Of a stretch of DNA of 64,000 bases, positions 514 through 28,944 are shown piece by piece. Within the stretch, counting starts at the first letter, position 1. Each line of letters opens with the position of its first letter. Source of the DNA: Sulfobacillus thermosulfidooxidans (GTDB lineage Bacteria > Bacillota > Sulfobacillia > Sulfobacillales > Sulfobacillaceae); assembly GCF_001280565.1 (NCBI RefSeq), contig NZ_LGRO01000001.1, positions 1,922,001 through 1,986,000 of the forward strand. Reading direction: 5' to 3'. The notes beneath the pieces are model-generated. The model searched no databases and was not told the origin of the DNA. It saw only the letters and a program-made list of their open reading frames with translations. The position numbers and the translations under genes are program-made.

Positions 514-1466
514 GTTCGTAGCCTACCTATGAGGAATTGAAACTTCCACTAAAGTGCCGAGAGCCGGAGCCCATGCGCGGTTCGTAGCCTACCTATGAGG
601 AATTGAAACAGGGTAGTCCTCAGTAACTTCGTAATAGTCACTAGTTCGTAGCCTACCTATGAGGAATTGAAACCCTATCTTATTTGAGATAGGTAAAATT
701 TAAAAAAATTCCTGCGTTCGTAGCCTACCTATGAGGAATTGAAACTGAAACTTGTTGGTTGAAACTTGTCAGGGTGCTGAGTTCGTAGCCTACCTATGAG
801 GAATTGAAACTCCTTCATTCTATACGCGAAAAAATGCCATGCGTATTTGTTCGTAGCCTACCTATGAGGAATTGAAACAACGCAACCACCAACCCAACAA
901 GCGCCATGGCCCAGTTCGTAGCCTACCTATGAGGAATTGAAACATAGAAAACATTTATTCTCTAAACGAGAATTGCAAGTTCGTAGCCTACCTATGAGGA
1001 ATTGAAACTCATAACCATACAGTTTAACGCGAAACTGTATGGAAGTTCGTAGCCTACCTATGAGGAATTGAAACTGCGTTCCAGGTTTCTGCGGCGGGTG
1101 ATGTTTCGATGTTCGTAGCCTACCTATGAGGAATTGAAACACAGCACCTTTTGGATAGCGGTGCTGAGATTCGTTCGTTCGTAGCCTACCTATGAGGAAT
1201 TGAAACATATAAATGGTAACCATCACGTCAACAGAAGGTTTAGTTCGTAGCCTACCTATGAGGAATTGAAACGGCACATAATGGGAGTGGGTACGACTAT
1301 ATTTATATGTTCGTAGCCTACCTATGAGGAATTGAAACCCGACGAGGAGATCCTTGCCGCGCTCGAATTTTTGACGTTCGTAGCCTACCTATGAGGAATT
1401 GAAACGCTATGGAAACTGTCCCAATTTTGTCCTGCGGAACAAGTTCGAAGCCTACCTATGAGGAAT
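514..1466 (+). CRISPR. CRISPR array, 15 repeats and 14 spacers
   Basis: A 30-bp repeat beginning GTTCGTAGCC and ending GAATTGAAAC occurs identically at 514, 580, 644, 716, 781, 849, 914, 979, 1045, 1111, 1177, 1243, 1309 and 1376. A fifteenth copy at 1443-1466 is degenerate: one T-to-A change, and the last six bases are lost. Spacers are 34-42 bp, mostly 35-37. The ATTGAAAC end is typical of repeats used by type I-B and type III systems, and the Card1-like gene upstream favours type III. The leader is on the left and the decayed repeat on the right, so pre-crRNA runs on the plus strand. No cas operon is in the window. Spacers at 674, 1009 and 1141 contain perfect inverted repeats. Confidence 0.97.
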
Positions 1467-1495
1467 AACCTGCTCACCGTCATCCGGTAGGTTTT
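1467..1495 (+). terminator. Possible terminator of the CRISPR transcript
   Basis: AACCT-gctc-ACCG (1467-1479) can pair with CGGT-AGGTT (1485-1493) with a four-base bulge, followed by TT. It starts directly after the degenerate last repeat. The helix is imperfect and the T run short. Confidence 0.35.
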
Positions 1496-1566
1496 CATTT
1501 ACCTCTCGCTTATCGAAAGCGGCAATCCGTTCTTACAGAATTAACACAACAGAAAAGACATGTAAA

Positions 1567-2037
1567 TTATTCATCTTGAATATCACTAATTTTATAGAGA
1601 ATTGCCGCTGGAACAACCTTTTCCATATGCCGACCACAATCGGCCAAAGGGGCAAATCCATAATGTTGGTAAAGCCCATGAGCATCACGCGTCACCAAAT
1701 AGAAACGTCTTAATCCTTGCAAATCCGGGTGATCCATAATCGATTCTATTAGCCATTTACCCAGTCCTTGACCTCTATATGGTGCTAAAACAAACACATC
1801 ACATAAATAAGCGAATGTCGCAAAATCTGAAATAACCCGTGCAAATCCCACTTGTTGACTATCCTGGTAAATACCAAAACATAAAGAATGCCGCAGGCTT
1901 TTCTCAAAAATATCCCGAGGCAATCCTACAGACCAATATGCTTCATTATGGAGATATGAAAATACGGTTTCTTTGTCCAACAAGGCTGGATCTGTTGATA
2001 TGATAAAAGGATTCTTCACCCGCGCAAATACTTTCAT
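1567..2037 (-). CDS. GNAT family N-acetyltransferase
   Basis: A 156-residue single-domain protein. The acetyl-CoA binding loop of the GNAT fold is visible as VFVLAPYRGQGLGKWLI (about residues 81-97, with the R/Q-x-x-G-x-G/A signature). Upstream strands (VGFARVISD, YLCDVF) and the C-terminal YQHYGF strand-helix fit the family. The small-molecule or protein substrate cannot be inferred. It ends about 70 bp after the CRISPR trailer, convergent with the array, and has no operon partner. The ribosome-binding site before the ATG is weak (AAAGGGG, 13 bases away). Confidence 0.8.
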   Translation of the reverse strand: MKVFARVKNPFIISTDPALLDKETVFSYLHNEAYWSVGLPRDIFEKSLRHSLCFGIYQDSQQVGFARVISDFATFAYLCDVFVLAPYRGQGLGKWLIESIMDHPDLQGLRRFYLVTRDAHGLYQHYGFAPLADCGRHMEKVVPAAILYKISDIQDE

Positions 2038-2518
2038 ATCGCCGTTTATACCCCTTTGTCATGGCGTGGTTTCTCTGCAGAATCTTTAAGTCTCTATGTC
2101 ATTCGTCAGATCTATCCATTCTTCCTGCTTTCTTCGAACAGTACCCAGTATCCAGCACGCCACGAGAGCCTACTCTGTTCTAACTGTTCTCCAAAATGAT
2201 TAGGGATGATATTTATACAATTTTTCTGGATTATTTTGTGAGAATACACAACGCCAAACTTCACATCGATTAGTATAATTTCTTACGTAGATGTTGTCTT
2301 TAATGTCATTTTAATATTACATATCGTGATATTTCTAACATTTTTCTGCCATAACTTCTTAGTTATTTGTTTTGTTTTAATCATTTTGCGTGAGATATGA
2401 TACGAAACCCATAAAGCCAACGACTGATAATTGATCAACTTGTTATTTTTCAACGCCTCGTCAATCCAAACACCATGAGTGATGTATGCACCTCATCAAC
2501 GTGAACAGGAGGAACTAT
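2038..2518. other. Intergenic region, AT-rich, upstream of the MBL gene
   Basis: This separates two divergent genes and becomes clearly AT-rich from about 2200. It must hold their promoters. TATAAT occurs at 2274-2279 without a convincing -35. No RNA gene, repeat or conserved leader was recognised. Confidence 0.5.
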
Positions 2519-18853: not shown

Positions 18854-19249
18854 TTAAAACAACAAATAGATGCTAATGACCAAACTAAAAAAAACCATAA
18901 TAATGCCCAAAACCATTGGCGTGTGGGCCCCAATAAGATTAAGACCCTTGTGGAACCCGTCAAAAATGCGGCGGTAGCGAACAATAGCCACCCCTTGCAC
19001 CATCACCGCGAAGAACGACAAGGTCGCCCCTAAATAGGGACCAATGCGAATATGCCGGGGTAAATACGCGCGGAATTGTGGCGCCACTAAATATTCCAAC
19101 AGGCCGAATTTGGTAATCACAAACCCAAAAGTGACAAGCGCTATGCCTGTACGAATCCAGGATAATAACGTGCGTTCATTCGCTTGCAGGACACGGGGAT
19201 CCGTATACATCGCAATTTTTTGCGCCTGATCTTCGCTGTGTAGCGCCAT
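18854..19249 (-). CDS. DUF202 (YidH-like) small membrane protein
   Basis: A 131-residue protein with the DUF202 opening [20 protein letters not shown] followed by three hydrophobic helices (about residues 32-50, 72-92, 108-130). The family is of unknown function. It lies 47 bp behind a paralogue of the same orientation, and the two share the pattern DPRVL-ANER-LLSW. They are probably one operon from a tandem duplication with large divergence. Confidence 0.85.
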
Positions 19250-19296: not shown

Positions 19297-19677
19297 CTAA
19301 GACAGAAGATAAATCGCTAGTAATACAACCCAAACCAGTATAATGGACCCAAAAAAGGTTGGAGCCTTAGAACCTCGACCATCTTCGGCCCGGTGCCACC
19401 GTGTCATATTGCGGTAATAGCGCACTAATGCCACGACCTCAAGAAACGTTGCCATTAATGACAACATCCCGCCCACCATATGGCCGAAACGGACCATGGG
19501 TAACAATTGAATCTGATGGCCAGGATCCAGCACTTTATCGATAACAGCAGCTTTACTCAATAAAAATGCAAATCCCATGAGATACAAAGCCATGCGCATC
19601 CAACTTAATAAACTGCGCTCATTAGCTAATAAAACCCGGGGATCTGTGTAATATAACCGGCGGTCATCTTGAGTCAA
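19297..19677 (-). CDS. DUF202 small membrane protein, paralogue
   Basis: A 126-residue protein with YTDPRVLLANERSLLSWMRM at the N-terminus and three membrane helices, the same layout as the next gene. Upstream AGGAG precedes the start. It is first in the two-gene unit. The conserved charged Asn-Glu-Arg before helix 1 is kept in both copies. The function is unknown; the pair may work as a heteromer. Confidence 0.85.
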   Translation of the reverse strand: MTQDDRRLYYTDPRVLLANERSLLSWMRMALYLMGFAFLLSKAAVIDKVLDPGHQIQLLPMVRFGHMVGGMLSLMATFLEVVALVRYYRNMTRWHRAEDGRGSKAPTFFGSIILVWVVLLAIYLLS

Positions 19678-20404: not shown

Positions 20405-22225
20405 TCATTTATCTGGCATCAAATCGTCAAAATGAGGTTGCCAGGAGGCAACGTCACGAGATGGCAAAGGATAACTAATCGCATATCCCTGCCACGCTGT
20501 CACTCCCCAGCGTGCTAGAGCATTGCGCTGTTCCAAATTCTCCACCCCTTCAGCGACGGTCGGCACATTCAAAGTCTTAGCAAATGCCAGGATGGCTTGA
20601 AGCAGGCGGCGCCCCGGTTCAGTCGACCAATTTGCTACAAACTGAATATCAATTTTGATTTGACGGATAGGTAACTCACGGAGATGAACCAGCGAACTAA
20701 AGCCGGTGCCGAAATCATCCAAGGCAAAATGATAGCCTCGTTGATCAAGTTCAGCTACCGTTTGTTTGATGGGATCCATATCGACCAGTAACGCGGACTC
20801 CAAAATTTCAAAGGTAAGTGCATGAGGTTTGACGGATGGCCATTGACGATGGTATGACTCCAGTAACGCCAAAAGATTGGGATCACGCAAATCCATATAA
20901 CTCAAGTTGACGGCCACATGTCCTTTCCAGCCGTGTTGGTGCCACTCGCTCATATCCTGAAAAACGAGGCGCATAACCCGGTCATCCAGTTGTCGTAGCA
21001 AATGATGTTGGGCAATAGCCGGCAAAAAATCTTTAGGAGCATATAGCACACCATCTGCGCCTTCGATACGCACTAAAGCTTCCCATTCCCATATCGTGCG
21101 GGATTTCGCCTTAATAATCGGTTGATAGAAAACACGCACCCTATCTTGTCGTAAGGCCTCATCCACGAAAGCAATCCCATCGGCCGCTTTAGATCGCTCC
21201 GGATGAATAGGATTGAGCAACCATGATTGCCTTGCACGCTTCGCCGCATAGAGTGCTTGATCCGCCACCTGCAACAGGGTATCGACATCCTGCCCGTCTT
21301 GGGGATAATGAGCCCATCCAAAACTAGCCGAGACGCTCAAGGGATGCCCAGGTATTACAGCAATAGGTACCGTCAAGGCATCCCGCAATTGTGCGACCAG
21401 TTCACTGACAGAAACCCTCTGGTCTCGGCACACGATGAGGAATTCATCACCGCCCCATCGTCCAATCCAATCGGACTCATGAAGACGCCAGCGCCAGCGC
21501 CGTGCCACCATTTGCAGAACCTTGTCCCCAGTCCCATGCCCATATTGATCGTTAATCGGCTTAAACCCATTGAGATCAGCAAAAATGACCGTAAAAGGTT
21601 TGCCTTCGCTCATCCAATCCTGAATACGCTCTTCCGTAAAATCGCGATTGGGTAACTGCGTCAATCCATCATGCCGAGATGTAAAGGCCACCTGCGTTGC
21701 AGTCATCACAAACATTTCGATGACCATGCGTCGGAATATGGCATCATCTTGTTCGGACCATGTCGTATACGTGCTGCCTTGCCTGGATGCATTTAAGATT
21801 TCACTCATTAACAAGGCATAGGCCGCTTGAAACTGGGGCCCATAAATGCCCCGGGCCAGATGTCTTAGGCTCACGGTTTCGGCATAGGTGATGGCCTTGA
21901 GATCATGAGGATCGTCACGTAAACGTTCTAAATGTTCCCCCAATAGAACTTGCATCCGGTCATAGGTTGTCCGCTCCCGGATTAACCGGTCGAGTTCAGG
22001 GATTTGCTGAATTCGGGCATAGAACCGCTCAACCGCCTCCTGAGCAATTGTCTCCCACGGTAAGGCACTAAATACCTGCTGATAACGTGGGTTCCAGCCG
22101 AGCAGGTCAGCAAATACCCGTACATCATCAACCACCCCAAACAATTGTGGATCCCAGCGCAGGGGATATTCATGATTGGCATTGTGATCATCCCAAGCAT
22201 CCTTGATTGACCATCCTTGTCCCAT
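20405..22225 (-). CDS. Globin-coupled sensor GGDEF-EAL protein
   Basis: About 606 residues. An all-helical N-terminal domain (about residues 25-195) resembles the globin-coupled sensor/protoglobin domain, with a candidate haem-proximal His in SLRHLARGIYGPQFQAAY. A diguanylate cyclase domain with intact GRWGGDEFLIV follows, then an EAL phosphodiesterase domain with WEALVRIE, FEILESALL, LDDFGTGFSSL and VAEGVENLEQ. Both catalytic signatures are intact, so it may make or break cyclic-di-GMP under oxygen or redox control. ATG at 22225 is chosen for the GGAAAGG upstream; an in-frame TTG at 22276 has no good site. Confidence 0.82.
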   Translation of the reverse strand: MGQGWSIKDAWDDHNANHEYPLRWDPQLFGVVDDVRVFADLLGWNPRYQQVFSALPWETIAQEAVERFYARIQQIPELDRLIRERTTYDRMQVLLGEHLERLRDDPHDLKAITYAETVSLRHLARGIYGPQFQAAYALLMSEILNASRQGSTYTTWSEQDDAIFRRMVIEMFVMTATQVAFTSRHDGLTQLPNRDFTEERIQDWMSEGKPFTVIFADLNGFKPINDQYGHGTGDKVLQMVARRWRWRLHESDWIGRWGGDEFLIVCRDQRVSVSELVAQLRDALTVPIAVIPGHPLSVSASFGWAHYPQDGQDVDTLLQVADQALYAAKRARQSWLLNPIHPERSKAADGIAFVDEALRQDRVRVFYQPIIKAKSRTIWEWEALVRIEGADGVLYAPKDFLPAIAQHHLLRQLDDRVMRLVFQDMSEWHQHGWKGHVAVNLSYMDLRDPNLLALLESYHRQWPSVKPHALTFEILESALLVDMDPIKQTVAELDQRGYHFALDDFGTGFSSLVHLRELPIRQIKIDIQFVANWSTEPGRRLLQAILAFAKTLNVPTVAEGVENLEQRNALARWGVTAWQGYAISYPLPSRDVASWQPHFDDLMPDK

Positions 22226-22460
22226 CTCATTGGCATCCTTTCCTTCGACATCCCCGTCACATCGATTTGATGGCAATTCCTCTGGCGTCTAGCCCCCTGT
22301 GAAATAGATGTTAATAAATGTAGGCAAATTGATGACAATTCGGTAGGGCCATATGGCCTGTCCCTGTGGACTATTTGTTGGATTTTGACGAATGCTGTCA
22401 GGATAAATGAGTTTGAACTATGGTGAAATTCGGTAAGGCCAGCTCATGCAGAGGTTGTAA

Positions 22461-22506
22461 ATAATAAAAAGCGTCCCGGCAGCGAGAACGCTATGACTAA
22501 GGACGC
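22461..22506 (-). terminator. Terminator of the SCO-propeller cassette
   Basis: On the minus strand GCGTCC (22506-22501) pairs with GGACGC (22476-22471) around an inner AGCG/CGCT stem, followed by TTTTTATTATT. It lies just after the stop codon at 22514. Confidence 0.65.
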
Positions 22507-22513
22507 GTTGTCT

Positions 22514-23059
22514 TTAGCACCATCCATGACGGCTTAACACGTTAGCCACCACACCATAAGACATCAGCACGGTCACGATAAGACCTAACCATGCCCATTT
22601 CTTCCACAGAAGGCGCCAGGCTACGCCGCCTAATAAACCCATCACCAAAATCGACAGATCGGTTTCCACATATAGAGGCTTATGCGCGTCAATAAACTCA
22701 TTCAAGAAGGGATTCGTCCAAATTAGTCCGACTAAGGCATTCCCCACTAAAATCGCCATCGCCCCATATTGGGCCACTTTTTGGTGGACGTCCACCGACT
22801 TGTGAGGTAAAAAGATACCGACAAGCCTCTCAACCCATTCATCAGCCTGAACGAAAATGGCAAGCGTGGCAATCATGCCTAATAGTGTTAATCCCCATGT
22901 CAGAAGAAGATGCCAGCCGATACATCCCTTATTATCCGCCGCCTGAATAATCTCAAACATCGGATTGGACATCATTCCCAGATAAATGGCGACTAAAATG
23001 ACAATGACGGGCCAGCGAAACCACGACACACGGGATTTCTCAGAACCTCGTTCCATCAT
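22514..23059 (-). CDS. Unknown membrane protein of the SCO-propeller cassette
   Basis: A 181-residue protein with about five hydrophobic helices (near residues 15-33, 48-67, 94-112, 130-146, 154-172). No family was recognised. It overlaps the preceding gene by four bases (ATGA), so it is translationally coupled and is the last gene of the cassette, followed by a terminator. A single Cys-Ile-Gly-Trp-His stretch (KGCIGWH) sits at the start of helix 2 and could be a ligand site; this is only a suggestion. Confidence 0.65.
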   Translation of the reverse strand: MMERGSEKSRVSWFRWPVIVILVAIYLGMMSNPMFEIIQAADNKGCIGWHLLLTWGLTLLGMIATLAIFVQADEWVERLVGIFLPHKSVDVHQKVAQYGAMAILVGNALVGLIWTNPFLNEFIDAHKPLYVETDLSILVMGLLGGVAWRLLWKKWAWLGLIVTVLMSYGVVANVLSRHGWC

Positions 23060-23982
23060 GATGATGTCACCTTCGGTCTTTGGTGAAGATGCGGGTTCTG
23101 GATGAGATCAGCCCGGGCAATGGCCATGAAGATGAGAAAAGGAATAATCATCCCGGGAGTGGGGGCGAGTCCGGTCCATATGCCGCCACACGCCTCGGGT
23201 ACGACCCAAATGATGGTCGTTACCGCCACAGATAGACCAAAGGCATAACGCCACCGTCTTAACCAGGCTATGCCCACTGCCAACATGATTAACACCAGAA
23301 ACAAATTGGTCATTAGCGGGTGGTGAAAACTCAGCATAACGCCATCATTGATACTTTGTTGGAGCCATGACGGTTCGGAGCCATCCATAGTCACTAAACC
23401 AAACACTTCGGCTAGACGCGGACCATGCCAAAAACCCGATCCCGGCAATCCTTGGAGTCCTGCCATCATAATCCAGAGCCACCCGAGCCCTTGCCGCAAG
23501 CGGTAAACGAGTTGGTGATTTTCCCACCAAAGCATGGGCAGAATCACCAAAAGTGTGGCGACCCCATACAGCAGTGCTGTGCCTGGCGTTCCGGTCAGCA
23601 TGCTTCCGGTCCCATTAAACAAGTTACCAAAGCCTTCTGCCACGCCCCAGAGAACAATAGACCAAGCAATTAACACATAGGCGGCGACAGTACGAGCCCT
23701 GGGGTTTCCCCATGTGATAATCAACGCACCTCCAACCTCCAGTGCGGCAATGAGATAGGGCCATAAAGAAGGAGCCGCAAGCCAGAGGGTATCGGCCGCT
23801 TGCAAGAGTTTTTGGACTCCCAAGGGCTGCCACGCTTCAGCTGGCGGCGCCAAAATATCACTGACGAACAAGGGACTGTGAATTTTCGGTTGCAGCATCA
23901 TTATCCCAGAAATTGCCCACATGATACCGACCGCAATCCGGGTCTTAGTGCGTAAAGATACCGACGAGGACGCGCTAGCCAT
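23056..23982 (-). CDS. Membrane protein related to the first gene of the cassette
   Basis: About 308 residues with eight or nine hydrophobic helices. It shares a pattern with the protein at 25688-26761: a helix followed by LLYGVATLLVILPMLWW against ILYVLLAILLLLPSRFW, a GxxxGNLF-type turn before a Gly-Thr/Ser-Pro-Gly motif, and PGSGFWHG against PASGFWQG. The function is not known to me. ATG at 23982 has GGAGG eight bases upstream. It overlaps the next gene by four bases. The two relatives flank a SCO-like redox protein, so they may hold or receive its product in the membrane. Confidence 0.65.
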   Translation of the reverse strand: MASASSSVSLRTKTRIAVGIMWAISGIMMLQPKIHSPLFVSDILAPPAEAWQPLGVQKLLQAADTLWLAAPSLWPYLIAALEVGGALIITWGNPRARTVAAYVLIAWSIVLWGVAEGFGNLFNGTGSMLTGTPGTALLYGVATLLVILPMLWWENHQLVYRLRQGLGWLWIMMAGLQGLPGSGFWHGPRLAEVFGLVTMDGSEPSWLQQSINDGVMLSFHHPLMTNLFLVLIMLAVGIAWLRRWRYAFGLSVAVTTIIWVVPEACGGIWTGLAPTPGMIIPFLIFMAIARADLIQNPHLHQRPKVTSS

Positions 23983-24002
23983 CTTACGATACCTCCCACG
24001 CG

Positions 24003-25691
24003 TTAAGGTAAATGATGCGGCACCCATGTCGTGCCATGGTTTTGACTGACCCAAAGTATGGTCATTTGGTCTTGGCGCGTCATCACCATGACATTGCCAT
24101 TATTCGCGACATCTAGCGCCACAGGAGTTCCAGTTGGTAGATGCGCAATCCCCTCATGCCATGTGTTTTGGTTCCAAGTCCAAGTATCAATATGATGAGA
24201 CGCCGTTAATACATAGCCAGCATTCCCATTGATGCTGAGAGCAGCATAAGGATTGCCCTCAATCTGTAAGGGGGCCGTAGCTCTTGTCCAGGTTTTCCCG
24301 CCATTGCTTGTCCTATCCCACATTAGCCATTCTTGGCCATGATCTGTCCGCACAATCGCCGTTTCCCCCTGGCTGGCACTTTGCCATGTAGGCGCCATAA
24401 CTAATAGGTTCTGATTCTCCCAAGATTTGGGTACAGGCAATGGCGCCCGGGTAAAGGCGTTTTTGTTCCACGACCATAAATAGGCCATGGAACCGCTGTG
24501 AATCTCTCCGCCCAGCCAAAGATTTTGATGGGGTTGTAGACTTATCGAAGTTTCCGGCATCCAGGGCGCATTATGGGCCACGGCAACCCATTTTTGACCA
24601 CCCGTAGTCGTATTTAACAGTTCATGGTCACTAATCACCCACGCCGTATTTTGCGATGTCGCCACCAATGGATGAAGAGCATGAGGCGGTAAAGGGCCAG
24701 GAATTATCAGAGGTGCACTCCATGTTTGACCCCCGTTGTTCGTGGTTCGAAGGACAGGATCCACCTGATATCCATAAGCTCCGACTAAGGCCCATGCTGA
24801 GTTGACACCGGTCGGTGCGACCTCAATACCTCCTCGTTGAGTCATGGCTTCGGGGGTCACGATTTGCCAGGTACTTCCTCCTGTCAGCGATCGCTCTACG
24901 GTCCGGTACCCCTGGTAGGGACTAATCGACCACGAGGTGAGTCCATTGCCAACTAACGCATAAGAGGGTCCAATCGGTTGCCAGACTCCTTGGCCCAGGT
25001 TATTGCCTGGGCTTGATAATTCAGGCAATGGTTGATGAAGCATTTTGGCCACATAGGTGGCCAACAATTGTGCGGTTCCACCAATATATTTGGTTTGAGC
25101 GGTGGGGTTACTCAACCAGACTTCGCGCCCTTTGGGACTAATCAACCAAAAAACGTCCGCATGTTGGACCATGCCATATTTTGGAACATGCACATATTCA
25201 TAATAATTGTGCCACACCCGAGACAAGGTGGAGACTGAAGGCGAGGTCAGATATGTGAAGTTGGGCACCGAATTCAGCCCATGTTCGGTATCAAAAGCCT
25301 GGATATCCTTTAAACTGTGAAACTCTGGATTAGCATCCACCGCAATAATTTGTACATGCGAAGCTAAAGGACCTAGGACATGGTTCATGTCCACTAATTC
25401 TTGTGCTTCCAGCGGGCAATCCCACCAACAGACGGGATCAAAAAATGTCAGGACAACAACTTTTCCCCGGTACTGGGTCAAACTAATGGGTTGTCCCTTG
25501 GCATTTAACAATTGAAAATTAGGAGCCGGCTTATTCACATAAGTCATACCATCGGCCGCCAGGGCTTCTGTCGCCGCTGCTGTCAACTGGGTACTGGGTG
25601 CATTATGATAAATCCGGGACAGCCCCCATCCTGCAAAGGCCGCTACAGGCAATAATCCGAACAAGACCCATTTTTGGTACGATTTCTTCAT
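24003..25691 (-). CDS. SCO-like thioredoxin domain fused to an Asp-box (BNR) beta-propeller
   Basis: 562 residues. A signal-anchor (about 8-26) places the rest outside the membrane. Residues about 50-215 are a SCO/TlpA-type thioredoxin fold: FQLLNAKGQPISLTQYRGKV, then DPVCWWDCPLEAQEL with the CxxxCP copper/redox motif of SCO proteins, and VQHADVFWLI giving the distal His. Residues about 225-562 hold at least five Asp-box/BNR-like turns of the form GG-x-x-W (TNNGGQTW, TTGGQKW, SNGGKTW, SQNHGTTW, LTGGSTW), a beta-propeller. SCO proteins deliver copper to cytochrome oxidase. The propeller fusion is unusual. The stop of the upstream gene overlaps the ATG by four bases. Confidence 0.8.
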   Translation of the reverse strand: MKKSYQKWVLFGLLPVAAFAGWGLSRIYHNAPSTQLTAAATEALAADGMTYVNKPAPNFQLLNAKGQPISLTQYRGKVVVLTFFDPVCWWDCPLEAQELVDMNHVLGPLASHVQIIAVDANPEFHSLKDIQAFDTEHGLNSVPNFTYLTSPSVSTLSRVWHNYYEYVHVPKYGMVQHADVFWLISPKGREVWLSNPTAQTKYIGGTAQLLATYVAKMLHQPLPELSSPGNNLGQGVWQPIGPSYALVGNGLTSWSISPYQGYRTVERSLTGGSTWQIVTPEAMTQRGGIEVAPTGVNSAWALVGAYGYQVDPVLRTTNNGGQTWSAPLIIPGPLPPHALHPLVATSQNTAWVISDHELLNTTTGGQKWVAVAHNAPWMPETSISLQPHQNLWLGGEIHSGSMAYLWSWNKNAFTRAPLPVPKSWENQNLLVMAPTWQSASQGETAIVRTDHGQEWLMWDRTSNGGKTWTRATAPLQIEGNPYAALSINGNAGYVLTASHHIDTWTWNQNTWHEGIAHLPTGTPVALDVANNGNVMVMTRQDQMTILWVSQNHGTTWVPHHLP

Positions 25692-26761
25692 GACAATGTT
25701 CGCCCTTTCGCCGGTGTCGAATCCATGAAAAGATTTCGACCGAAAATGGGCAACGTGGCAAGGCGAGCATAAACACCCAAAGACAATAATACTAGCACGC
25801 CGCTATTGGGATCGGTTCCCATTCCCCCTAAAACGCCGAAATCTTGCCCAAGCCACCATGTGGCAAAGGTTACACCAAAAGTCACCCACCACGTGAAAAC
25901 CGATTTCGGCAAGGTGATCCACAAAATGGCCAAAACACTAAAGATGATAACGAGAACAGCATTCCAAAGAGCTGGATGAGCCGCTAAGGAGTTTGCCCAT
26001 AGATAGAGTGGTTCTGAAAAGATTCCGGGTTGTGGCATTTCCGCCATACTCAAGACGTAAGCGGACACACTTTGGCCTTGCCAAAATCCCGATGCAGGCC
26101 ATGCTTGCAATAACGCGGATAAGCCCCATAATCCGGCCAAACCATATTGAAAGATCTTAGTGGGACCGGAAGATTGCCAAAATCTTGACGGGAGCAAAAG
26201 CAAGATAGCCAATAACACATATAAAATGACCGATCCTGGGCTGCCGCTTAACCACGAACCTCCACTAAAGAGACTCCCCATAGCTTCCCCGCCAATCCAC
26301 ACCACTAGACCCCAAGCGATAGAAAGCCATAAGCCTGCACGCCGCCAGGTGTTTATACTTCCCAAAAGAATCAATAATCCGATATCGATTTGTATCCACG
26401 TCGCAAATTCATTCCACATGACCGGGTTAATACCCCATAGACGGACGCCAATCTCGATAAGACTGCGCAATAAAGCCGGTTGTCCTTGGATTAAGGGTGC
26501 TAAAAAGCCCCCAATAAACCGGGTGATCATGAGCGGTTGAGCTTGTAATAAACCATCTAAGAGCCACAAGGCGCCAAGTCCCCGGGCCAACCATTCGTAC
26601 GCCACAGGGTAAGGCGGAGTCACATCTTGTTCATGATGAAGGCGAAGACGTCGCAATAGTGTCACGACAACAATAGCCAATGTGATGATTGCAAGAATCC
26701 AGAATAACCGATAAAAATCTGCCTCCGCCACCGGCGGGGGTAGTGGATTGCCCATATTCAC
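25688..26761 (-). CDS. Membrane protein, first gene of the SCO-propeller cassette
   Basis: 357 residues with about nine hydrophobic helices. It seems internally duplicated: ALWLLDGLLQAQPLM near the N-terminus and GLWGLSALLQAWPASGFW in the second half. It is a distant relative of the protein at 23056-23982. GTG at 26761 has AGGGG eight bases upstream. No known family was recognised with confidence; some DoxX-like quinone-linked proteins have comparable short helices. Its four-base overlap with the SCO-propeller gene indicates coupled expression. Confidence 0.65.
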   Translation of the reverse strand: MNMGNPLPPPVAEADFYRLFWILAIITLAIVVVTLLRRLRLHHEQDVTPPYPVAYEWLARGLGALWLLDGLLQAQPLMITRFIGGFLAPLIQGQPALLRSLIEIGVRLWGINPVMWNEFATWIQIDIGLLILLGSINTWRRAGLWLSIAWGLVVWIGGEAMGSLFSGGSWLSGSPGSVILYVLLAILLLLPSRFWQSSGPTKIFQYGLAGLWGLSALLQAWPASGFWQGQSVSAYVLSMAEMPQPGIFSEPLYLWANSLAAHPALWNAVLVIIFSVLAILWITLPKSVFTWWVTFGVTFATWWLGQDFGVLGGMGTDPNSGVLVLLSLGVYARLATLPIFGRNLFMDSTPAKGRTLS

Positions 26762-27222: not shown

Positions 27223-28371
27223 CTACGCATAGGTAGCTTTGACGTTAAATTCCTGCTTCGTTGAGGCGGCCTCTGCAATAGCAGGTCTTACGTCCTCTCT
27301 ACAGGCTGTCACCGTGGAACTCACGGCCCATTTCATCAGATTCCTTGCAGCATTCACGTCTCGATCATGATGGGTTCCACACTCCGGGCATGTCCACTCG
27401 CGTATCGACAGTGGCATATTTTTTTGTTTCGTCCCACACTCTGAACATATTTTACTGGAGGCAAACCAGCGATCCACAATGATGAGTTGTCCACCACGCA
27501 TTGCTGTCTTATACGCTAACTGCCTACGCAACTCATGAAAGCCCCTGTCTCCCACAGCTCTTGCCAAACGATGATTCGCCATCATTCCTTTGACGTTCAA
27601 ATCTTCGACGACAATCACGCCGTATTGATTCACTAAGCAGGTAGTGAGCTTATGCAGTGCGTCGTGGCGGATATTGGCGATCTTTGCGTGGAGCTTCGCG
27701 AATTTGAGTTGGGCTTTTGCTCTGTTTTTCGAGCCTTTTTGCTTGCGAGATAGCGAACGGGACAATCGACGTAAACGATTCAAAAGGGCCTTGTGAGGCT
27801 TTGCGCCTGTCACAAAGGTTCCGTCAGACAACGTAGCCAATCGGTTGACCCCCAAATCCACGCCGACTATCGCTTGGTTTTCGCACATCGCCGGCGTCTC
27901 TTCCGTGTCTACCGTGATACTGACATACCATTTGTCTGCTTTTCGGGAAATGGTGGCAGACATGATCGTGCCAGAGAACCGCAAGGTTTCTCGCATTCGT
28001 CCCCATCCGAGATGGGGAATACGTATACGCTTGTCACTGACGGCAACCTGATCATTCGTGAGCGTGAAACTGTCATGAACGCCTTTCTGTTTGAAGGTTG
28101 GAGACTTCGCATCCCCTCGAAAAAACCGTTGGAACGCATTACCGAGGTGAATCAAAGCCATTTGTGGCGCGTTTTTCGTGACTTCGAGCATCCACGGGAA
28201 CTGTTCACGCTTGATGGCATTCAGTTGCCGACGAAGGGAAGCTTGCGTGGGTTTTTCACCGGCCTCATATTGGCGCTTCCACTGTGCAAGCCCCCAGTTG
28301 TAGGCAAACCGAGCTACGCCACAGGCTTTGGCAAAATAGGTAGCGTGTTTGTTATTACTCCTCTTCCGCAC
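27223..28371 (-). CDS. tnpB: TnpB-type RNA-guided nuclease of an IS200/IS605-family element, 5' end damaged
   Basis: 382 residues by the GTG at 28371. RuvC-like catalytic parts are intact: GVDLGVNRLATLSDG (Asp), VVEDLNVKGMM (Glu) and the final Asp in HDRDVNAARN. The zinc-ribbon CSECG...CPECG is complete. The N-terminal pattern AKACGVARFAYNWGLA is normal. However, the reading frame continues upstream (INSTAFTHHVRKR) in the way family N-termini do, yet no ATG or ribosome-binding site is present, and only 23 bp separate it from the transposase fragment's stop. The element seems to have lost its start. No tnpA is beside it. Confidence 0.85.
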   Translation of the reverse strand: MRKRSNNKHATYFAKACGVARFAYNWGLAQWKRQYEAGEKPTQASLRRQLNAIKREQFPWMLEVTKNAPQMALIHLGNAFQRFFRGDAKSPTFKQKGVHDSFTLTNDQVAVSDKRIRIPHLGWGRMRETLRFSGTIMSATISRKADKWYVSITVDTEETPAMCENQAIVGVDLGVNRLATLSDGTFVTGAKPHKALLNRLRRLSRSLSRKQKGSKNRAKAQLKFAKLHAKIANIRHDALHKLTTCLVNQYGVIVVEDLNVKGMMANHRLARAVGDRGFHELRRQLAYKTAMRGGQLIIVDRWFASSKICSECGTKQKNMPLSIREWTCPECGTHHDRDVNAARNLMKWAVSSTVTACREDVRPAIAEAASTKQEFNVKATYA

Positions 28372-28394: not shown

Positions 28395-28944
28395 TTATCC
28401 CGAGGGTCTAGGGGGCACCTGCGTGTAAATCGTGTCCGTAAAACCTAATGCGGCCAAAATGGCCGCCACCGATTGGGTATGAACCGCCGGAACAAAGAGT
28501 TGACGGGTCTGGGCATCCAGCGGCACGACAATCAGTCCGCGCAGATGATGTAACACCTCCTGCCCGGTGGGCCGCGCCAACAGACCGCGAGTCGGCGTGG
28601 GAAGGGGCGGGGCCTGCCGGGCCCGACGTTCGATGAGACTGAGCACCAACGCGGCGAGCAAGAGCACATAACCTAGGGCTTCCACCCGTTCCGGCTTGTG
28701 CACATAGAGCGCATCCACAAAGGCCGGGTCTTTTACAAAGCGAAAACGGTGTTCGATGACCGTCTGGCCTTTGTATTCTTCGAGTAATCGGCGGGCATCA
28801 AAGGAGGAGGCCGGCAGATTGGTGATTAAGACAAACGTCGCCGCCCGGTCCTGTGCCGCCTGCACGCGTTGCGCATCGACTGCCCCAATGGTGGGATGGA
28901 CCCGGTATACCGTGGTGGTAGCCGGTTCGGGGGCATCGTGGCGG
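28395..28944 (-). pseudogene. IS1634-type transposase, C-terminal fragment
   Basis: A readable frame of about 180 codons with the C-terminal part of an IS4-superfamily (IS1634-like) DDE transposase: NLPASSFDARRLLEEYKGQ, TVIEHRFRFVKDP with the catalytic Glu region, and LGYVLLLAALVLSLIERR. The first two thirds are missing. Upstream the frame runs straight into 16S rRNA sequence at about 28945. It is higher in GC than its neighbours. It is inactive as it stands. Confidence 0.75.

Follow-up and report, generated by a model that had tools for sequence, protein, structure and literature searches.

What is the function of a SCO protein fused to a β-propeller when its gene is flanked by those of two large membrane proteins? 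This arrangement occupies part of a 64,000-nucleotide stretch of DNA (the window; G000:C1:1922001-1986000) inside a 3.83 Mb Sulfobacillus genome (G000, the own genome below). A first-pass annotation had described four genes, with four-base overlaps joining the first and last pairs and a terminator at the end, and all of these elements are found on the minus strand in the order MA-SP-MB-SM (Table 1). MA and SP share bases 25688–25691, MB and SM share bases 23056–23059, and SP is separated from MB by ∼20 bases holding a GGGAGG site. The longest open frame of MB starts at TTG 24054; however, ATG 23982 is the likely start, because GGGAGG lies upstream of it and the orthologue in G215 (locus L059), which begins 21 nt past SP, is likewise 308 aa long.

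Table 1. Elements of the cassette in cassette order; positions are those of the window.
Feature	Position	Strand	Description
MA	25688..26761	-	357 aa, GTG start, polytopic membrane protein, 9 predicted TM
SP	24003..25691	-	562 aa, SCO domain and Ycf48-type propeller
MB	23056..23982	-	308 aa from ATG 23982, 8 TM, MA paralogue without the N-terminal helix
SM	22514..23059	-	181 aa, small membrane protein
Terminator	22470..22492	-	intrinsic-terminator-like hairpin and T tail, just 3′ of SM

The next minus-strand gene, directly 3′ of the cassette, encodes a Protoglobin-GGDEF-EAL protein (window 20405–22276), so that a haem-sensor c-di-GMP enzyme adjoins these putative oxidase-assembly genes; a gene from the same GGDEF/EAL cluster also lies 3′ of the cassette in G215. 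A tandem pair of DUF202 membrane proteins is encoded at 18854–19249 and 19297–19677 (minus strand). Immediately upstream of MA are an IS605-type OrfB (TnpB-like) gene and a DDE transposase fragment (27223–28371 and 28395–28865, minus strand).

The central protein, SP, combines a membrane-anchored SCO domain (residues ∼50–205) with a C-terminal propeller (∼225–562). The SCO domain matches SCO1-SenC (PF02630) in Pfam at 39.1 bits against a gathering cut-off of 22.8. Its CxxxCP motif reads CWWDCP, and C88, C92, P93, and H177 do not vary across 19 SCO relatives, in agreement with the copper/redox-type protein placed between the two membrane proteins at first pass. The top Foldseek matches of this part are 4hde (B. 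anthracis Sco) and 1xzo (BsSco, a cytochrome c oxidase assembly protein), with a TMt of about 0.8. The propeller is of the Ycf48 type, with Asp-box repeats TNNGGQTW, TSNGGKTW, and SQNHGTTW. It resembles Ycf48 by sequence (E 6e-6), and the leading structure matches of its model are Ycf48-D1 complexes (E 1e-7). SP scores below the PSII_BNR (PF14870) cut-off, and a stand-alone propeller in L097 scores 34.2 against a cut-off of 27. The model is weak over residues 225–330 (pLDDT under 50), a span that takes in the initial blades of the propeller, so we give no blade number. The L002 locus (880–2076, minus strand) encodes a tandem SCO and thioredoxin protein whose SCO domain has lost the CxxxC motif.

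The two large membrane proteins are kin, as had been proposed: MB is a divergent paralogue of MA (24% identity, phmmer 1e-20 to 1e-23). The structure model of MA is confident (pLDDT 92.4) and comprises one extra N-terminal helix followed by two four-helix units. These halves are homologous but diverged (N-half against C-half profiles, probability 98.6, E 7e-16), which bears out the internal repetition noted earlier. The MA/MB family (up to 85 members) has no match above noise in Pfam, NCBIfam, or the PDB sequences. Across 85 members, 20 loop residues are kept in at least 85% of sequences, and 18 of these fall in loops 2-3, 4-5, 6-7, and 8-9. The positive-inside pattern suggests that these four loops lie outside the cell, where SCO works, and the same predicted topology would put the conserved residues M78, E159, and D317 of MA on the extracytoplasmic side. 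No Cys or His is conserved among the 85 members; purely redox membrane proteins, one half of the earlier reading, are not favored.

By VIA-align, the nearest fold to MA is the membrane domain of the vitamin K-dependent carboxylase (GGCX; Z 11.3, model residues 48–350), and the C-terminal half is closest to NACHO/TMEM35A (Z 9.2, 123 of 133 residues), both values lying in the range, Z under about 13, that is unsafe for helical bundles. The matched GGCX structures are complexes with menaquinone-4 epoxide or vitamin K hydroquinone. The N-terminal half also gives a faint hint of DoxX (profile probability 24, P 8e-4; controls 0.037 or weaker), and in TQO, DoxD operates with quinone. These likenesses lead to the main rival to a copper platform, in which MA and MB would be quinone-binding oxidoreductases and the quinol pool would keep the cysteines of SCO and apo-COX2 reduced, as a thiol-reductase arm of oxidase assembly. 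Such an arm would meet the requirement of CuA assembly for cysteines in the reduced state (PMC6696091). We nevertheless consider it unlikely, given the unsafe Z values, the lack of a conserved Cys or His in MA, and the result that none of the 85 family members has a Pfam match to DoxX, DoxD, or MauE at E 0.1. Profiles of DoxD and MauE against the 4-TM half of MA gave a probability of about 1 or less, from small sets in which some rows are misread frames. A DoxD/TQO reading was rejected, the true DoxD genes sitting elsewhere in the own genome.

The small protein SM has no family match in Pfam or NCBIfam, and no profile link to MA, CtaM, CtaG, or DoxX was found. Against the CtaM (DUF420) profile, MA or SM reached a probability of 0.2 or less, and against CtaG (Caa3_CtaG) 1.4 or less. 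Two SM histidines, H126 and H178, are invariant across seven aligned sequences, and SM relatives occur in the oxidase region of Sulfoacidibacillus.

Of the two findings that the first-pass annotation named as refuting its reading, neither was obtained: the membrane proteins belong to no Pfam or NCBIfam family, and relatives keep the order of the genes. The complete MA-SP-MB-SM cassette is present in four genomes (the own genome, G215, G214, and S. thermotolerans Kr1), a shared order far beyond chance; elsewhere it has shrunk to MA-SP (G210 and G199) or has decayed (G212). A second locus of the own genome pairs a propeller-less SCO gene with an MB-type gene, and this pairing is kept in two further genomes (L018, L071, L073). 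Within the MB-type clade, 9 of 10 genes adjoin a SCO gene.

A scan of 84,980 species genomes with an MA-only alignment returned 179 relatives, of which 80 were kept; the genomes compared are partly MAGs. MA relatives are found in Sulfobacillaceae, Sulfoacidibacillus, Acidimicrobiia, Streptosporangiaceae, Dormibacterota, and one Thermoplasmata contig. At 15 loci, MA continues across an additional hydrophobic segment into a SCO domain that has CxxxCP; the hosts are Acidimicrobiia, Streptosporangiaceae, Dormibacterota, other Actinomycetota, and Sulfoacidibacillus; L133 is cut by a contig end. The tree needs five label changes, so this fusion was gained or lost repeatedly. In many fusion loci from several lineages, a stand-alone propeller gene comes next after MA-SCO, and in L125, L129, L138, and L149 the two genes share four bases. 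CtaG often accompanies this arrangement in Acidimicrobiia, Streptosporangiaceae, and Dormibacterota. Since SCO is joined to the propeller in Sulfobacillus and to MA in Actinobacteria and Dormibacterota, MA, SCO, and propeller behave as three variously joined parts.

MA is also fused to a sulfocyanin-type SoxE domain in Sulfobacillus loci L019 (7678–9366) and L118 (1314–2999), in both cases without the usual copper ligands. The usual His/Cys ligands are missing as well from the separate SoxE proteins L211, L209, and L207 of the own genome and from that of L111 (1–448), L210 being the sole SoxE with the full set. L211 lies ∼2 kb from COX2, and the L111 protein is encoded beside COX2.

The neighborhoods of the family point toward terminal oxidases. 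CtaG is found within 6 kb of 13 of 74 MA-family loci, against about 0.25–0.75 expected, and the excess persists after collapse to about seven lineages (rough P 2e-8). In L111 (Sulfoacidibacillus thermotolerans Y002) the order is SoxE-unassigned frame-COX2-COX1-COX3-two unknowns-CtaG-MA-MA:SCO, with CtaG, a copper ATPase, DsbD_2, SM, and a YtkA-like gene on the opposite strand. L150 (Acidimicrobiaceae) carries MA:SCO-propeller-CtaG-short unassigned frame-COX2-COX1 on one strand, and L089 reads MA-SP-CtaG. The own genome has five COX2 genes, all with a CuA motif. Co-expression with sulfur-oxidation genes had been raised at first pass, and this link finds no support, as a sulfur-oxidation gene is absent among the annotated neighbors. 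The acidophile setting and the faint DoxX hint would also suit a redox system on the sulfur side, akin to thiosulfate:quinone oxidoreductase (DoxDA) and with no part in supplying copper to oxidases, but with COX, CtaG, and copper-ATPase genes adjoining the relatives and the SCO copper ligands intact, we regard it as highly improbable.

Some planctomycetes carry CtaM (DUF420) as a fusion with Sco, and CtaM has been proposed to feed copper to Sco (PMC13344008). By the same fusion logic, MA and MB might carry copper across the membrane and pass it to SCO, a role with which the conserved M78, E159, and D317 and the copper ATPase near 7 of the 74 loci would be compatible. This is a rather improbable alternative: similarity to the DUF420 profile and a conserved ligand path through the membrane are both absent, and CtaM already occurs in 30 of the 34 family genomes, among them the own genome. 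The same count rules out MA as a substitute for a missing CtaM.

Considered together, gene linkage and fusion strongly support a functional association among these proteins. We think it probable that the cassette is a membrane metallochaperone module loading copper into CuA-type terminal oxidases, with MA and MB as the SCO platform. In B. subtilis, the caa3 oxidase is supported by CtaG, Sco, and CtaK, and Sco is postulated to assemble CuA (PMC13344008). In the proposed model, SP would tether its SCO domain on the outer side of the membrane, and this domain would bind copper through CxxxCP and His and hand it to the CuA site in oxidase subunit II. MA and MB would serve as the platform on which SCO is held in the membrane, and their conserved extracytoplasmic loops could offer it copper or the apo-subunit; in Actinobacteria, platform and SCO would reside in one polypeptide. 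By analogy with Ycf48 on D1, the propeller may dock on the nascent oxidase subunit, and SM may be an accessory membrane protein, perhaps a donor of copper ligands. Observed directly are the order and domains of the genes, the ligands of SCO, the fusions, the linkage to CtaG, a copper ATPase, and COX1/2/3, and the CuA motif in five COX2 proteins of the own genome; that SCO binds copper, where the metal goes, and what MA/MB, the propeller, and SM do are inferences. It is thus the copper-delivery half of the first-pass proposal, a “membrane redox or copper-delivery complex of acidophiles”, that gains from the ligands, the MA-SCO fusions, and the linkage.

Several observations count against the module. 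MA and MB conserve no Cys or His. There is no oxidase gene next to the cassette in the own genome. In G217, SP stands alone, without MA beside it. In the S. benefaciens AMDSBA1 MAG (L079, 6513–7526), the gene directly upstream of MA-SP encodes subunit II of cytochrome bd, an oxidase that needs no copper. Finally, 38 of the 74 MA-family loci have no SCO, propeller, CtaG, COX2, ATPase, or SM neighbor, which leaves room for broader functions of the family; no common theme was seen among the inspected neighbors of these orphan loci. We note that gene calls in the high-GC contigs are mechanical (longest frames), so companions may have been missed and some starts may be wrong.

More tentatively, MA and MB could represent a new class of Sco membrane partner, a twofold 4-TM protein (DoxX/GGCX-like), quinone-linked or copper-passing, within an undescribed CuA-oxidase metallation complex of acid-habitat bacteria that also contains SCO and a Ycf48-like docking propeller. 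If true, this would take the assembly-propeller principle of photosystem II into respiration. Sco-type oxidase assembly is already known; the novelty is the undescribed membrane family, conserved, nameless, and physically joined to Sco in several lineages, together with the link between a photosystem-assembly type of propeller and oxidase assembly. Among open-access papers, none was found that links Sulfobacillus to SCO1 together with cytochrome oxidase, and none that connects Ycf48 to both SCO1 and cytochrome c oxidase. At stake is how Gram-positive bacteria and actinobacteria get copper to Sco and to CuA, in hosts used for bioleaching at high copper.

Known systems resemble the cassette in parts. 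With the membrane domains of DoxX/DoxD, NACHO, and GGCX, MA may share a 4-TM unit, doubled in both MA and GGCX, although it falls below every family threshold and the helical-bundle Z is not decisive. The Bacillus caa3 set of Sco, CtaG, CtaK, and CtaM is matched insofar as CtaG, SCO, and YtkA-type genes likewise co-occur with the module in relatives, but the set has no named counterpart of MA, MB, SM, or the propeller. Like the Sco proteins (BsSco/YpmQ and human SCO1/2; PF02630), SP has a membrane-anchored SCO domain with CxxxCP and His and the 1xzo/4hde fold; unlike them, it is fused to a Ycf48-type propeller and is operonic with an undescribed polytopic family, to which SCO is itself fused elsewhere. 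Ycf48/HCF136 (PSII_BNR, PF14870) shares with SP the Asp-box propeller, and Ycf48-D1 complexes are the leading fold matches of that part. In contrast, SP falls short of the PSII_BNR cut-off, its setting is respiratory, and the propeller is fused or linked to SCO.
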